Shown piece by piece: positions 12,683 to 19,096 of a stretch of 43,160 nt of DNA (position 1 is the stretch's first letter; every line of letters starts with the position of its first letter). A program made the translations under genes and the position numbers. The DNA comes from Candidatus Zixiibacteriota bacterium (GTDB lineage: Bacteria > Zixibacteria > MSB-5A5 > GN15 > FEB-12). The notes beneath the pieces are model-generated. The model worked only from the letters and a program-made list of their open reading frames with translations, was not told where the DNA came from and made no database searches. Where the stretch lies: positions 1 through 43,160 of the forward strand of contig JAWXAN010000076.1 in the NCBI GenBank assembly GCA_034439475.1. The letters are read 5' to 3'.

Positions 12683-15064
12683 TCAGTTTTTGGAGAGTGT
12701 CCGAGCGTATTCTTTCAAACGCTCGAGGAATTCCTGTAAAATATCGCGATTTGCCTCATACGGTGACCAGCCGACTGTGCGGGTAATGGACGAGGCTAAA
12801 TTATAGACGGAATAACGGCGCTCGATCAGATCAAATTTTGCCTCTCGTAAAGTCCTGACAGCATCAACCATATCGGCCAGACCCCGTTTGCTGGCATCGT
12901 ATTCGTCCATCGCCATTTGTATCTGCGAGGTTATAATCTCGACGGAATGGGCCGACAACGGCACTGCGCTGATTGCGGCATCCAATTGATACATGTCTCG
13001 CTGCAATTTCCCCATCAGTTCAGCGCGATAATAATCGCGCTCGTATTCGATTTGAGAATATCCATACTCAAGTTGCTGTGTCGCGCTTTTTTGTTTCCCG
13101 CCATTAAATAGCGAAAATCTCAGTTCGGCCCCAAGCGACCAGACCGGACGTTTCTCTTCAAAATTAACCCGCTCGGACAGTGAGTCGACCAAGGCGAGCG
13201 AGGCATTAAAACCTATTACCGGAAATCGTTTTGCTCTGTTTTGCAAAAGCTGAGACTTTTGACTACGAAGACGGATATTATTGGCTTGTGAGCGGGGATT
13301 ACTTTCGATTGCCGTTCTCACAAGATAGTCCTGAAGTCTCGATCTATCACTTTCTGACCCGGCAAGCGACTCCAAAGCCTGGAATGTGGTGACAAAGGCG
13401 TCTTCGGCAACAAGCGACTCATCAATTGCGAGTGTGTTGTTTCCCGGTCGGTTGAGGAGCACATTCAGCAGGACCCTCGCGCTCGATTCAGACCGTCTCG
13501 CATCTACAATCGCAGACTGCGTCCGCAATTGTTCGAGTTGCCAGCGAAGGACGTCGACCTGGGAGCCTCCGTTCATGCGAAGCCGCGCCTGGGCAGACTC
13601 AAGGGCTCTTTCTACGATTCTTCTCTGCGCTGTTTCTATCCGCACAACTTCAAGTGCCCGACTGTAATTGAAATAGGCCAGAGTAACAGCGAACTCAAGA
13701 TCAAGCGCAGCCTCCTTGAGTTTATTTTCTTCAAGCTCTTTACTTATGGCGGCCGTTTTTGACGCATTGATTTTTGACAGAGAAAAGAGAGTCTGTTCGA
13801 GAAGCAACTCAGCCCGCATTCTCTCATTGGTAAAGCGGCCGCCCGAATTATGAACGGAATTGTTGTCGATATAACCGATTGCCCCCTCGGCTGAAATCTC
13901 TGGCAGAAAATTCCCGGCTGAGGCTCTGGTGGCTTGAATTGCAGATTCCATTTTCTCCGACGCCGCCAAATATCCAGAGTTCTGGCTTAGGGCTAACCCG
14001 ACGGCATCTGGCAGTCGGAGAAGCTCATGTCCCGAAAGTGTATCTCCTATAATGTCGGCGTTGAGCCATACCGCATCCGACAGCTCTATTTTTAACTCTC
14101 GGGCTGTCGCCGCATTTACAGTCAGCCCTTTGCCCTCTTCAAAAATGGTCGGAAGAGACGATGGCATTTCTCCCTGCATTATCCGTATCGTCTTGGATAC
14201 GGCATAGATCGCGACCGCATCGATTGTTTGAGTGGCATGCGATAACAGCGCGCCTCGTTCAACCAAGAACCGTCCATCGGCAGCAAAAACTGCCACATTA
14301 TCCTTGACCGCAGCCAGGAGAAACTCGCGGATTAGTTCATTAGTAAGTCCATAGAGCGAAGTCAGATACAGCGCATCAACTTTCTTATCGAGCAGAGCGT
14401 ACGCTTTGAAAAAAGCATGCGTTCCGATATTATTGAAACCCTCTGCGGTTACTACCTCAAATCCCAGCGACTTCCCAATCTGCTTAACAGAATCAAAGAG
14501 CCCATCCTGTTCATCCCCTGATGGAAAATGTAAAAAACCGACGGTCTTGGGGTTGACGATCCCCCTCAAAACGGCGAGATCCGATTGGAGCTTGCCCGGT
14601 GTGACATGTACCGTGAGATTGGAAGCTTTTGGATTGCCCGACGCATCAAGCAGGCCTTCGGCTTTTGGGTCAAATCGGCCAAGCGCAACAATCGGTTTGG
14701 TATAACCAGCTTCGAGGAGGTCTTCTACCACCCATGGCCCAATCGCCACGACAATGTCAAATGCCCCATTATTAGTTATTCGTCTGGCAATCGCCTTAGT
14801 GCTATCCCGCTTCCAGCCGCCGGACTGATAGCTCCCGGTAGGAAATTCTACTTTATAGCCATCCGGAAGACTTGATTCGAGGTGGTTTCTGAAAGATTCA
14901 CGAATGCGAGCATGTGTTACATAGTCCCCCGGTTCCAAAAAGGCAATTCGAAAGGTGCGGCTGGACGTTTGAGAATTAATGCCAGCCGGAAGGACAACCA
15001 AGCACACGGCAATAGTGGTTAGAAATATGGCGAGATTTGGAATGCTGGTTCGTTGTTGAATCAT
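12683..15064 (-). CDS. Fusion of ABC-type substrate-binding domain and TolC-family outer membrane channel
   Basis: 793 aa from the ATG at 15064. An upstream TTG at 15085 would add seven residues, but neither start has a clear ribosome-binding site; the ATG gives a neat signal peptide (LAIFLTTIAVCLVVLPAGINS). Residues about 38-335 look like a periplasmic substrate-binding domain of the ABC_sub_bind type (FRIAFLEPGDY; AFDIVVAIGPWV-like strand; PKTVGFLHFPSG; VDALYLTSLYG; NVAVFAADGRFLVERGALLSH). From about 343 to the end the sequence is a TolC/OEP outer-membrane efflux domain: LPDAVGLALSQNSGYLAA, two long coiled-coil regions, and FSLFNGGKQKSATQQLEYGY. TolC proteins form trimeric channels for efflux pumps; a fused solute-binding module is unusual. 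It faces away from the ABC exporter operon at 15511. Confidence 0.75.
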   Translation of the reverse strand: MIQQRTSIPNLAIFLTTIAVCLVVLPAGINSQTSSRTFRIAFLEPGDYVTHARIRESFRNHLESSLPDGYKVEFPTGSYQSGGWKRDSTKAIARRITNNGAFDIVVAIGPWVVEDLLEAGYTKPIVALGRFDPKAEGLLDASGNPKASNLTVHVTPGKLQSDLAVLRGIVNPKTVGFLHFPSGDEQDGLFDSVKQIGKSLGFEVVTAEGFNNIGTHAFFKAYALLDKKVDALYLTSLYGLTNELIREFLLAAVKDNVAVFAADGRFLVERGALLSHATQTIDAVAIYAVSKTIRIMQGEMPSSLPTIFEEGKGLTVNAATARELKIELSDAVWLNADIIGDTLSGHELLRLPDAVGLALSQNSGYLAASEKMESAIQATRASAGNFLPEISAEGAIGYIDNNSVHNSGGRFTNERMRAELLLEQTLFSLSKINASKTAAISKELEENKLKEAALDLEFAVTLAYFNYSRALEVVRIETAQRRIVERALESAQARLRMNGGSQVDVLRWQLEQLRTQSAIVDARRSESSARVLLNVLLNRPGNNTLAIDESLVAEDAFVTTFQALESLAGSESDRSRLQDYLVRTAIESNPRSQANNIRLRSQKSQLLQNRAKRFPVIGFNASLALVDSLSERVNFEEKRPVWSLGAELRFSLFNGGKQKSATQQLEYGYSQIEYERDYYRAELMGKLQRDMYQLDAAISAVPLSAHSVEIITSQIQMAMDEYDASKRGLADMVDAVRTLREAKFDLIERRYSVYNLASSITRTVGWSPYEANRDILQEFLERLKEYARTLSKN

Positions 15065-15273
15065 TGCTGCATATATTGTACGCAAAAAACCATGAAAATC
15101 AAAACAGCTGGTTACTTTATATTGATTATGGCCAAGACTGGCCCGACAGGCGCTTTTTGTTTACCGGAACAATAAAATATTGCCCGAAATCAAAATTTTT
15201 AGTTGACACAGCATTAACTATTTATTTCTTTGCAATTGTCGCAGACCAAATATCGTAACTGTGGGTAAAAGAT

Positions 15274-15293
15274 TTAGATTAGATTAGATTAGA
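15274..15293 (+). repeat. Four tandem TTAGA units
   Basis: A simple 5-bp tandem repeat just upstream of the ribosome-binding site of the 26-codon leader ORF. Slippage here would change the length of the leader transcript. Confidence 0.7.
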
Positions 15294-15310
15294 TAAAGGA
15301 AACAAATAAC

Positions 15311-15391
15311 GTGATTAACAGAACTGTCAAAGTAGATACATCGCTAATGGCAAACGGCCATATCGACGGGAGAGATTTGTTGATTATGTGA
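15311..15391 (+). CDS. 26-aa leader peptide ORF
   Basis: GTG start, 26 codons, TGA stop, preceded by AAAGGA ten bases upstream. The peptide begins MINRTVKVDT and ends GRDLLIM. An in-frame ATG at 15347 could give a 14-aa version. It has no homologue I recognise. Its interest lies in its position: the antiterminator strand lies inside it and its stop codon is within a hairpin before an intrinsic terminator, directly ahead of a two-gene ABC exporter. Real translation is inferred, not shown. Confidence 0.5.
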   Translation: MINRTVKVDTSLMANGHIDGRDLLIM

Positions 15392-15414
15392 TTTTGTTCA
15401 CATAGAGATTTTCG

Positions 15415-15450
15415 ACCCGTCGGTGCATAAAACATTCGGCGGGTTTTTTT
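15415..15450 (+). terminator. Intrinsic terminator in the ABC exporter leader
   Basis: An 8-bp stem ACCCGTCG (15415-15422) / CGGCGGGT (15437-15444), with one G-U pair and a 14-nt loop, followed by a run of seven T (15444-15450). No full-length gene ends just upstream on this strand, so it terminates a short leader transcript. Confidence 0.75.
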
Positions 15451-15510
15451 GTGATTGCCGCGCCGTTGCAGATGCACGAAACTGATCAGAACTGATAAAG
15501 GCAATGAAAT

Positions 15511-17307
15511 ATGACCTCTGATTTATATGAAGATGAACCAAAGACCGAATCCCAAAGCAAGATTTCGCTCAAAGATGCATTCGGCACTATTGTACCTCTG
15601 CTCAAAGAGCACAAACGGAGATTAGGCTTCTCGCTTGTGTTGTTGACCGCAACGACTGGACTTGCTTTGGCATGGCCAATGATACTCAAAGAGGGAATCG
15701 ATGGTCCCCTGAAAACTGGTAACATTACCCTCTTAGTCCTACTCGCGCTTGCAATTCTTGTTATTCAGGCCGCTGCATTTTTAATCCAGTACCTTCAGCG
15801 GCTCTCGCTTGAACAGGTTGGCCAGGATGTGATGCTTTCGCTTAAACGACGGCTTTTTGACCACATTCTTTCGCTGGATTTCTCGTATTTCGATTCCAAT
15901 CCGGTTGGAAGAATTATGGCCCGAGTCGAGTCTGACTGCGAAGCCCTTCGGATGCTGTTCACAAATACTGTCGTCCTGCTTGTCGGCGACATGCTTCTTA
16001 TTCTTGGAATATACTCGATCATGGTCTATCAGCAGTGGCAGGTGGGTGTGATACTTTTTTTATCAGTACCGTTGCTGTGTGTGCTGATCTACTTCTTTCA
16101 CCGGTTGACAACCCATCGCTTTTTTGCGATACGCCGCAAAATGGCCGAAGTCACCGCTGTGCTCAGCGAATTCCTGCAAGGGATGTCGATTGTGCAGCTA
16201 TTCCACCGCGGGGAATATGCCCGAAAGAGAGTATACGAGACTAATGAGATAAAATTCGCCGACGATCAATTTGTCCAGATCAGCGTCTGCGTTTTCTTCA
16301 ATCTTATTCTTTTCATAGAGTATGTAAAGATCGGCTTGCTCCTGATGCTCGGCCCGAGGTTTGATTTGAGCGCGGGGCAAATTGTTCTTTTTCTCGTCCT
16401 GATAATGCGTTCCTTTGAGCCGATTTTCAGAACCTCAGAGCAATTGTCAAGCTTTCAAAAAGGAATTGCGGGGGCACGACGGATATATGAACTGCTCGCG
16501 ACTAAACCCGTGGTTCTCGATCCTGTTCGCCCTGAGCTTTGGAACAGGTTTGATGATGCAATTCGCTTCGAGGATGTCTCGTTTTCGTACACCGGTGATT
16601 CCAACTACGCCCTCAAAAACGCAACGTTTGATATTCCCAAAGGGAAGCGGGTGGCTCTTGTCGGTGTGACGGGTGGCGGCAAATCGACAGTTATCTCGTT
16701 GCTTCTTCGCTTCTATGATCCGCAGATGGGAAGGATAACAGTTGACGGAATAGATATACGAGACGTATCGAGGGCCGACCTTCGCAGAAAATTTGCCTTA
16801 GTGCTTCAAGATATTATCCTCTTTCCGGGAGACGTCAAAAACAATATTGGGCTTGGCGCCGAAGAAATTCCTCAGGAGCGGATTGCTGCCGCCGCACAAG
16901 TAGTGGATGCTGCGCTCTTTATTGATCGGTTGCCGAAAAGATATGAAACAGAAATATCGGAAAAAGGCTCGAATTTCAGCCGCGGCGAAAGACAGCTGCT
17001 GTCCTTCGCGCGTGCCCTTGCATTCGACCCGGAGATTTTGATATTGGATGAGGCCACATCCTCGGTTGATCCTGAAACCGAACGTGTGATGGCGGCATCG
17101 CTTAAAATACTTATGCACGGACGAACCTCGCTTATTATCGCCCATCGCTTGTCGACGATTCTCGATGTAGATAAGATCCTGGTTATTAAGCAGGGTGAAA
17201 TTATCGAATCCGGCACGCATACCGAACTTTTGCTACAAAATGGATACTATACAAAGCTGTTCCATTTGCAGTTCAAGTCAAAGATCGGAGAATTGACGAA
17301 TGCGTAA
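15511..17307 (+). CDS. ABC exporter half-transporter, subunit with degenerate signature motif
   Basis: 598 aa: a six-helix exporter transmembrane domain (about residues 38-305) fused to an ATPase domain. Walker A is GVTGGGKS (385-392), Q-loop Gln433, Walker B ILDE with catalytic Glu514, and switch His545. The ABC signature is FSRGE (489-493) instead of LSGGQ. It overlaps the next gene by 8 bases. The partner has a normal signature but Asp in place of the Walker B Glu. Together they give one consensus and one degenerate ATP site, the pattern of heterodimeric exporters such as BmrCD, LmrCD and TM287/288. Probably drug or lipid-like substrate export at the inner membrane. AAAGG lies just upstream of the ATG. 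Confidence 0.9.
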   Translation: MTSDLYEDEPKTESQSKISLKDAFGTIVPLLKEHKRRLGFSLVLLTATTGLALAWPMILKEGIDGPLKTGNITLLVLLALAILVIQAAAFLIQYLQRLSLEQVGQDVMLSLKRRLFDHILSLDFSYFDSNPVGRIMARVESDCEALRMLFTNTVVLLVGDMLLILGIYSIMVYQQWQVGVILFLSVPLLCVLIYFFHRLTTHRFFAIRRKMAEVTAVLSEFLQGMSIVQLFHRGEYARKRVYETNEIKFADDQFVQISVCVFFNLILFIEYVKIGLLLMLGPRFDLSAGQIVLFLVLIMRSFEPIFRTSEQLSSFQKGIAGARRIYELLATKPVVLDPVRPELWNRFDDAIRFEDVSFSYTGDSNYALKNATFDIPKGKRVALVGVTGGGKSTVISLLLRFYDPQMGRITVDGIDIRDVSRADLRRKFALVLQDIILFPGDVKNNIGLGAEEIPQERIAAAAQVVDAALFIDRLPKRYETEISEKGSNFSRGERQLLSFARALAFDPEILILDEATSSVDPETERVMAASLKILMHGRTSLIIAHRLSTILDVDKILVIKQGEIIESGTHTELLLQNGYYTKLFHLQFKSKIGELTNA

Positions 17308-19096
17308 GAAAATAAAATGGTTGTGGCAGTATTACCGGCACTATAAATATGTCCTGCTTGTACTCCTCCTCCTTACACCTGTGCAGGCGGTTTTTCAGGT
17401 GCTTCTTCCCCGCATGCTCGGTTTTGTGATTGATTTTCTGAAATCCGGAATCGTGCCAACTGAAGGAATGGCCGGAAAACTGGTTGAGACCGGGCAGTCC
17501 TATGATCTTAATCCAAGCGACACATTTGCGGTGACTTTTCTGATTGTGAGTTTCATTGCAGTCGGGCTCTATGCTTTTGTCCAATCCCACAGGGCATGGA
17601 TGAATTCGCGCTTTGAATGGCTGTTCCGCCAGCACGCCTTTAACACGATCACCATTAAGGGGCCGGACTTTTTCAATCGGTTTCGCACTGGGGATTTGCT
17701 GACCCGCCTGACCGATGATGTCGCCGACAAACTCTCGTGGTTTGCCTGTTCGGGGATATTCCGGCTGTATGAGGCGTTGGCTATCGTGTCATTCATAATT
17801 GCTATGATGATATCGATTGATCCGCTTCTGACACTCTATACAGTAGGGCCGTTGCCGCTGCTGATATTTATCTTTTTCAAAAGCGCATCCCTTTTGGATA
17901 AACGGTATGACCTACTTCAGGTGAAGATTTCAAATTTCAGCGATGTAATGGAAGCCTGCTTTTCGGGAATCCGTGTGGTCAAGGCCTATGTGCGCGAGAA
18001 GGCACAGCAAAAGAGCTTTGAGAAGGCAGCCATGGAACGCCGCGAAGCCGAGTTGTCGGCTGTCAAAATCACCGCGATTGTCGATTCGCTTTATGCCTAT
18101 GTCTGGCAGTTCGGAATTGTAATCGTACTGATTGCTGGCGGCTGGATGGTGATAAAAAGCAGTCTTAGCTTGGGGAATTTGAGCGCCTTTATTTATTACG
18201 TTGTCTGGCTCGTCTTCCCGATGTTCGATATCGGGCAGTTCCTTGTCAAATCCCGCCAGTCGGCAGTTTCGATTGATAGACTGGTGGAACTTGAAGATGT
18301 CCCGGCGATGGTGAAGGAAAGCGGAACGCTGTCGGCCAATGGATATGTGAAAGGAAATCTTTCGCTCAAAAATGTCTCGTTTGGTTTTGCGACTTCCGAA
18401 CGGAAGATTGTCCAGAATGTGTCCTTTGACATCAAGGCTGGTGAAACGGTTGCTCTAGTCGGTAAAGTCGGCTCAGGTAAGAGCTGGCTGGTGAATATGA
18501 TCCCGCGTCTGGTCGACCCAACTGGCGGAGTTATATCACTGGATGGACATGACCTGCGCGAGTATAAACTCGAGGACCTTCGCACATCAATTGGTTATGT
18601 CCCGCAGGAGCCGGTTTTGTTCAGCGACACCATTCGCAATAACATTCTCTTTGGACGCAAAGATATTTCAGACACGGTGCTTGAGTGGGCTATAGAAATA
18701 TCTCAGCTTAAAGAGGAGATCTCGCGCTTTCCCAAGGGTCTTGAAACCTCAATTGGAACCCGCGGGATGTCGATATCCGGCGGACAAAAGCAGCGTGTGG
18801 CGTTGGCACGTGCATTGGTCGGCAAGCCGAAGATATTAATATTGGATGACTGTACTTCGGCTCTTGACTCACGCACCGAATCTCTCTTGTGGGAACGATT
18901 ACATGAGGTATTGCCGGATATCACGGCGATTCTCATCACTCATCGGCCTGACACACTCGAACGGGCAGATATGATTCATGTTATGGAAGACGGTTCGATT
19001 ATAGAAAGTGGACGGCATTTTGAGTTGATGGCTCAAGAGGGACATTACGCGCGAATTTACAACCGCTATCAACTTGAGGAGCAAGTGACTAAATAG
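17300..19096 (+). CDS. ABC exporter half-transporter, subunit with degenerate Walker B
   Basis: 598 aa, transmembrane domain plus ATPase. Walker A is GKVGSGKS (388-395), Q-loop Gln436 in YVPQEPVLFSD, signature ISGGQ (492-496), and Walker B ILILDD with Asp517 where the catalytic Glu should be; switch His548 is present. Translationally coupled to the upstream half-transporter through the 8-base overlap. The defects in the two subunits fall in the same composite ATP site (this Walker B with the partner's FSRGE), which strongly supports an obligate heterodimer. The 3' end overlaps the convergent DJ-1-like gene by 8 bases. Confidence 0.9.
   Translation: MRKKIKWLWQYYRHYKYVLLVLLLLTPVQAVFQVLLPRMLGFVIDFLKSGIVPTEGMAGKLVETGQSYDLNPSDTFAVTFLIVSFIAVGLYAFVQSHRAWMNSRFEWLFRQHAFNTITIKGPDFFNRFRTGDLLTRLTDDVADKLSWFACSGIFRLYEALAIVSFIIAMMISIDPLLTLYTVGPLPLLIFIFFKSASLLDKRYDLLQVKISNFSDVMEACFSGIRVVKAYVREKAQQKSFEKAAMERREAELSAVKITAIVDSLYAYVWQFGIVIVLIAGGWMVIKSSLSLGNLSAFIYYVVWLVFPMFDIGQFLVKSRQSAVSIDRLVELEDVPAMVKESGTLSANGYVKGNLSLKNVSFGFATSERKIVQNVSFDIKAGETVALVGKVGSGKSWLVNMIPRLVDPTGGVISLDGHDLREYKLEDLRTSIGYVPQEPVLFSDTIRNNILFGRKDISDTVLEWAIEISQLKEEISRFPKGLETSIGTRGMSISGGQKQRVALARALVGKPKILILDDCTSALDSRTESLLWERLHEVLPDITAILITHRPDTLERADMIHVMEDGSIIESGRHFELMAQEGHYARIYNRYQLEEQVTK

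Follow-up and report, generated by a model that had tools for sequence, protein, structure and literature searches.

The closest published case to the leader described here is the bmrB attenuator of Bacillus subtilis, in which a leader ORF and alternative stem-loops precede bmrCD in the bmrBCD operon (PMC4191407). This system is induced by chloramphenicol, erythromycin, and lincomycin and requires translation of bmrB; its terminator lies within the coding region, the leader is 162 nt long, and control is tied to AbrB (PMC4191407). The ermK and mef(E)/mel(msr) attenuators consist of a short leader ORF and an intrinsic terminator, and a drug-stalled ribosome favours the antiterminator (PMC5418344, PMC4335068). 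Other drug-responsive transcription attenuators have been reviewed (PMC5418344). In Escherichia coli, the toiL uORF of topAI-yjhQ senses several classes of ribosome-targeting antibiotics (PMC12121999).

The window analysed in this study is the whole stretch of 43,160 nt at positions 1–43,160 (forward strand) of contig JAWXAN010000076.1 from a Candidatus Zixiibacteriota bacterium. A preliminary description of this DNA had taken the host for a probable member of the FCB group, to which the phylum indeed belongs. It had also proposed a heterodimeric ABC exporter preceded by a translated leader ORF and by an antiterminator and a terminator that exclude one another, and comparison with relatives has borne this arrangement out. 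The features of the locus, with the evidence for each, are as follows.

15203–15208, + strand: TTGACA, −35-like element of the putative leader promoter (motif placement in relatives)
15296–15301, + strand: Shine–Dalgarno-like AAAGGA (sequence; a similar motif precedes nearly all leader ORFs of relatives)
15311–15391, + strand: leader ORF, GTG start, 26 codons plus TGA, VINRTVKVDTSLMANGHIDGRDLLIM (sequence; strict ORF test; codon-position bias)
15364–15370, + strand: arm 1, CGACGGG, consensus GCGGCGGG, the antiterminator strand carried by the ORF (partner of arm 3; covarying)
15385–15404, + strand: hairpin B, TATGTGATTTTGTTCACATA, containing the stop codon TGA (sequence; moderate support)
15416–15422, + strand: arm 3, CCCGTCG, common to the antiterminator (with arm 1) and the terminator (with arm 4) (covariation)
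15437–15443, + strand: arm 4, CGGCGGG, 3′ arm of the intrinsic terminator (pairing in 39 relatives)
15444–15450, + strand: T tract of the intrinsic terminator (sequence; near-invariant in the alignments)
15511–17307, + strand: exporter subunit A, BmrD/YheH- and TM288-like, the regulated gene (Pfam PF00664 and PF00005; PDB relatives YheH and TM_0288)
17300–19096, + strand: exporter subunit B, BmrC/YheI-like, overlapping A by 8 nt (Pfam; relatives in the PDB are YheI and the partner chain of TM_0288)

The locus resembles bmrB in having a leader ORF and an antiterminator/terminator pair before a heterodimeric ABC exporter, whose subunits are homologous to BmrC/YheI and BmrD/YheH. Among bacterial solved structures, subunit A was closest to chain A of 6raf (a multidrug ABC exporter subunit), followed by BmrD/YheH and TM_0288, and subunit B was closest to BmrC/YheI. 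According to our reading of the sequences, subunit A has the Walker B motif LDEA and a degenerate signature, SRGER, and subunit B has LDDC and the signature ISGGQ; as read, these motifs are those of heterodimeric exporters with one degenerate site. In contrast to bmrBCD, the BmrD-like gene comes first and the BmrC-like gene second, and the terminator is located approximately 25 nt past the leader stop codon, whereas in bmrB it lies inside the ORF of a longer leader. That the gene order differs and that termination takes place outside the ORF would fit an origin independent of bmrB, although neither proves it. For bmrB, which is under AbrB-linked control, the drug response has been measured, whereas the present leader is known from sequence and modelling. 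With ermK and mef(E)/mel(msr) it shares the short leader ORF, the intrinsic terminator, and the antiterminator; the likeness is one of layout. Those attenuators control other genes and respond to macrolides. The resemblance to toiL concerns how the leader is read, as a uORF that would sense general ribosome inhibition rather than one drug; the target of toiL is the ribosome-binding site of topAI, with Rho-dependent termination, whereas an intrinsic terminator is present here.

In most of the 75 relatives a TTGACA motif (≤1 mismatch) precedes the leader start codon by about 105 ± 10 nt, so transcription should begin upstream of the leader, with the start estimated near 15236–15240. The preliminary description had named a start of exporter transcription downstream of 15450 as an observation that would count against the switch; the conserved motif points to the opposite side of the leader. 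The −10 element was weak in the window species, and a simple promoter scan of the window gave nothing useful. No structure was detected in the 5′ untranslated region upstream of the Shine–Dalgarno sequence (mean z 0.12). Positions 15271–15293 of this region contain a short ATTAG tandem repeat.

The perfect complementarity of arms 1 and 3 (7 nt), reported in the preliminary description with the right coordinates, belongs to a helix that covaries. The probability of finding CGACGGG by chance was about 0.004 in the shuffled ORF and about 0.007 in the shuffled leader. In an alignment of 21 sequences, 96.4% of the cells of the antiterminator helix were paired and five of its eight pairs showed compensatory changes; for the terminator helix the values were 91.9% and 8 of 11 pairs. 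Another 39 sequences, aligned without structure although the model that retrieved them contained the antiterminator, gave 95.2% paired cells with compensatory changes in 4/8 pairs for the antiterminator, and 98.9% with 3/7 pairs for the terminator. When the partner strand was shifted by 1–3 columns in the 39-sequence alignment, pairing fell to ≤59%. The antiterminator pair formed by columns 25 and 92 underwent five double changes and lies outside the 7-bp terminator stem, so the terminator cannot account for them. Together with the leader matches across the phylum, their position before the exporter, and the ORF counts given below, these alignments remove chance as the source of the arm complementarity.

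The terminator stands where it had been placed, within a base: 60 nt separate the T tract from the exporter ATG (15511), against the 61 bp given before. It was missed by a simple terminator scan of the window, probably because the scan allows loops of up to 8 nt and this one exceeds that size. The stop codon was likewise said to lie in a hairpin at 15385–15404. The TGA is indeed inside hairpin B; the hairpin itself is only partly conserved, with 56.5% of cells paired in 21 relatives; its mean z was −1.05. It is possibly an RNA polymerase pause hairpin.

The pattern was visible by eye upstream of 30 exporter loci, and a leader covariance model was built from 21 of them. The model matched in 65 of the 80 genomes of the order and in 82 of the 132 genomes of the phylum, where the phylum set comprises one class and the phylum-level search is thus the same as a class-level search. 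Matches occurred nearly always once per genome. All strong matches with the downstream side present lay 37–75 nt upstream of an orthologous exporter A subunit, and in relatives with a leader match the B subunit usually followed next. Close relatives of subunit A come from MAGs whose titles name Candidatus Zixiibacteriota, candidate division GN15, or Zixibacteria, and the exporter also occurs in some MAGs titled Eisenbacteria. Among genomes that carry a close exporter without a model match, most (G044, G054, and G055 among them) have a diverged version of the layout, and the same layout was found upstream of several loci beyond the range of the model (L138, L164, L173, and L176). Diverged versions include the f3 leaders described below and family f2 (L027–L030), whose exporters have two short tandem ORFs upstream, the second of which spans the arm. 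No recognisable version of the leader was found upstream of the family f17 exporters (39–43% identity). Eight loci gave no Rfam match at the gathering score, all matches of the window leader were below threshold, and our literature search found no description of such a leader element in Zixibacteria.

An ORF of 22–30 codons running through arm 1 was present in all 75 complete exporter-linked leaders under a relaxed test. Under a strict test that requires a Shine–Dalgarno sequence, 71 of the 75 passed, compared with 1.1 expected from dinucleotide shuffling. The 26-codon ORF and ribosome-binding site reported for the window have counterparts in relatives. Loss of the complementary arms or of the ORF among relatives had been put forward as evidence against the switch; both proved conserved. 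Start codons were ATG in 72 leaders and GTG in three, and TGA, TAA, and TAG were all used as stops. The stop codon starts 18 nt past arm 1 in 51/75 leaders; with this distance, a ribosome standing on the stop would reach back to arm 1 with its rear edge. In family f3 the exporter leaders have 50–69 codons and the stop still lies 14 nt past the arm. The base composition of the leader ORFs depends strongly on codon position, and GA in frame (Asp and Glu codons) accounts for 1.8% vs. 5.4% expected, about a third of what position-specific composition would give (75 leaders). This bias, together with the in-frame depletion, indicates that the leader ORF is read by ribosomes, with avoidance of acidic residues, which would perhaps cause ribosome drop-off and false switching. 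The window peptide carries a dockerin-like motif (NGHIDGRDLL), and we considered that it might be a decayed gene end; this reading was rejected because relatives keep the ORF with other peptides.

The leader has the features of a regulatory class already known, namely an ORF over the antiterminator arm, a mutually exclusive antiterminator and intrinsic terminator, and a promoter motif upstream; as an RNA element it is conserved and has no Rfam match. We consider it probable, with good confidence, that it is a ribosome-mediated transcription attenuator that senses impaired translation and switches the exporter on when a ribosome stalls before arm 1. In a healthy cell the leading ribosome would trail RNA polymerase and sit on arm 1 while arm 3 emerges. 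With arm 1 covered, arm 3 would pair with arm 4 to form the terminator and the pump would stay off. An early stall in the leader, most plausibly caused by a ribosome-targeting inhibitor, would leave arm 1 free to take arm 3 first, and RNA polymerase would continue into the exporter operon.

Folding agreed with this scheme in its main steps. In the minimum free energy fold of 15295–15510, the region singled out in the preliminary description, arm 1 is paired with arm 3, and a modelled ribosome over arm 1 shifts the fold to the terminator. Constrained folding of each of the 75 leaders with a ribosome footprint at each codon gave, for the stage at which arm 3 has emerged and arm 4 is still to be transcribed, a mean antiterminator probability of 0.91 when arm 1 was free or the ribosome was at codon 2, 0.92 when it was 14 codons before the stop, and 0.00 when it was six codons before the stop. 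Once the terminator was complete, a ribosome located 8 to 2 codons before the stop gave the terminator in 75/75 leaders. At full equilibrium with arm 1 free, the completed terminator was still favoured in most members (mean 0.67 vs. 0.25), so the switch is presumably kinetic.

The polarity is suggested by other leaders of the same phylum. Weak matches of the leader model were found upstream of trpE-trpG-trpD operons of family f2 (L078, L080, and L108; gene names read from translations). The leader peptides of L078 and L080 contain four Trp codons (WWWW), the run lying before the terminator-pairing arm. A Tyr/Phe-rich leader (L072 in G131:C8; VYYYQYFGLF) with antiterminator and terminator precedes a chorismate-mutase-like gene, as read from its translation. 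All four share with the exporter leaders the leader ORF, an arm 1 near its end that pairs with the 5′ arm of the terminator, and a terminator before the operon; they differ in having runs of Trp or Tyr/Phe codons ahead of arm 1, which the exporter leader lacks. The trpE leaders also place their stop codon at arm 1, whereas in the exporter leaders it lies about 18 nt past the arm. In trp leaders, stalling at Trp codons switches the operon on. Since the trpE leaders share the layout and carry their codon run ahead of arm 1, the analogy suggests that a stall before arm 1 turns the exporter on.

We regard as unlikely the other polarity, in which a stall near the leader end or stop codon controls the switch or read-through needs translation as reported for bmrB. 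The spacing of stop codon and arm 1 in the 51 leaders would suit it; the trpE leaders nevertheless indicate the stall before arm 1 as the ON state. A ribosome that has reached the stop codon just clears arm 1, a point for which the simple model has no account and which counts against it. Untranslated bmrB terminates more (PMC4191407), and the window leader offers a modelled parallel: without translation its start region is predicted to fold onto the stop region, arm 1 is trapped, and the terminator forms, while a ribosome at the start codon frees the arm. The window species would thus be OFF without any ribosome, which counts against the simple model; the long-range start–stop helix, however, was found in few other members only.

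The preliminary description had suggested comparing both arms and peptide in relatives. The arms covary and the ORF is kept, as shown above, whereas the peptide sequence is not conserved: within genera it drifts with pN 0.39, near pS 0.49, and ORF length ranges from 16 to 69 codons across the phylum. This bears on a drug-specific arrest peptide, with which one antibiotic class and the nascent peptide would stall the ribosome at a set codon before arm 1 and cause antitermination. In its favour, arm 1 has a constant frame in 66/75 leaders (mostly RGG, CGG, or xDG), Pro is frequent ahead of the arm (55/75), and acidic residues are avoided; yet the arm lies in another frame in the remaining 9/75. 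Because the peptide sequence is unconserved, a specific arrest peptide is not favoured, and we hold it to be quite unlikely. The peptide varies while the ORF and the RNA arms stay, so the attenuator would need a ribosome over the arm and not a specific peptide.

An amino-acid starvation attenuator of the trp/phe type would place the exporter under one aminoacyl-tRNA. The layout shared with the trpE leaders and the Tyr/Phe-rich leader speaks for it, but none of the 75 exporter leaders contains a regulatory codon run, and their commonest residues, Ile (12%) and Asn (11%), are scattered. We find this type of control highly improbable. A ligand- or protein-binding RNA switch with an incidental ORF is similarly improbable, as the conserved RNA arms and a weak propensity for a hairpin directly ahead of arm 1 (mean z −0.71) are outweighed by the strict-test excess of ORFs, the fixed stop register, the codon-position bias, and the lack of a conserved aptamer-like core in the alignments or an Rfam match.

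For the ribosome-mediated attenuator, the lack of both a codon run and a conserved peptide makes the input probably a general impairment of translation and not the lack of a single amino acid. Translation sensing by the leader is well supported by the comparative data, and what is sensed is likely to be elongation impaired in general or an early stall caused by a ribosome drug. Judging by BmrCD, an antibiotic would be the most likely inducer, and the pump may be supposed to export it. The leader would tie the exporter to disturbed translation, and the proposed switch would be a means of turning the pump on at any disturbance of protein synthesis. For an uncultured phylum that is represented here by metagenome-assembled genomes alone, it offers a testable device for response to translation stress, and the same design in its trpE leaders suggests how amino-acid and drug-sensing attenuators may interconvert. 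More tentatively, and with somewhat less than even confidence, we propose that this is a phylum-wide, peptide-independent translation-stress sensor for a multidrug exporter, with a three-arm design without regulatory codons, a stop codon one ribosome half-length from the arm, and an origin independent of the Firmicutes bmrB.

Two minor observations concern the exporter and its surroundings. In one genome (locus L090 of G050) the leader is intact and the exporter A gene is shortened to 269 aa, perhaps a broken pump. In the window, positions 12683–15085 (− strand), divergent from the exporter, encode an 800-aa protein with an unusual fusion of domains, ABC_sub_bind (PF04392) and a TolC-like outer membrane efflux domain (PF02321).
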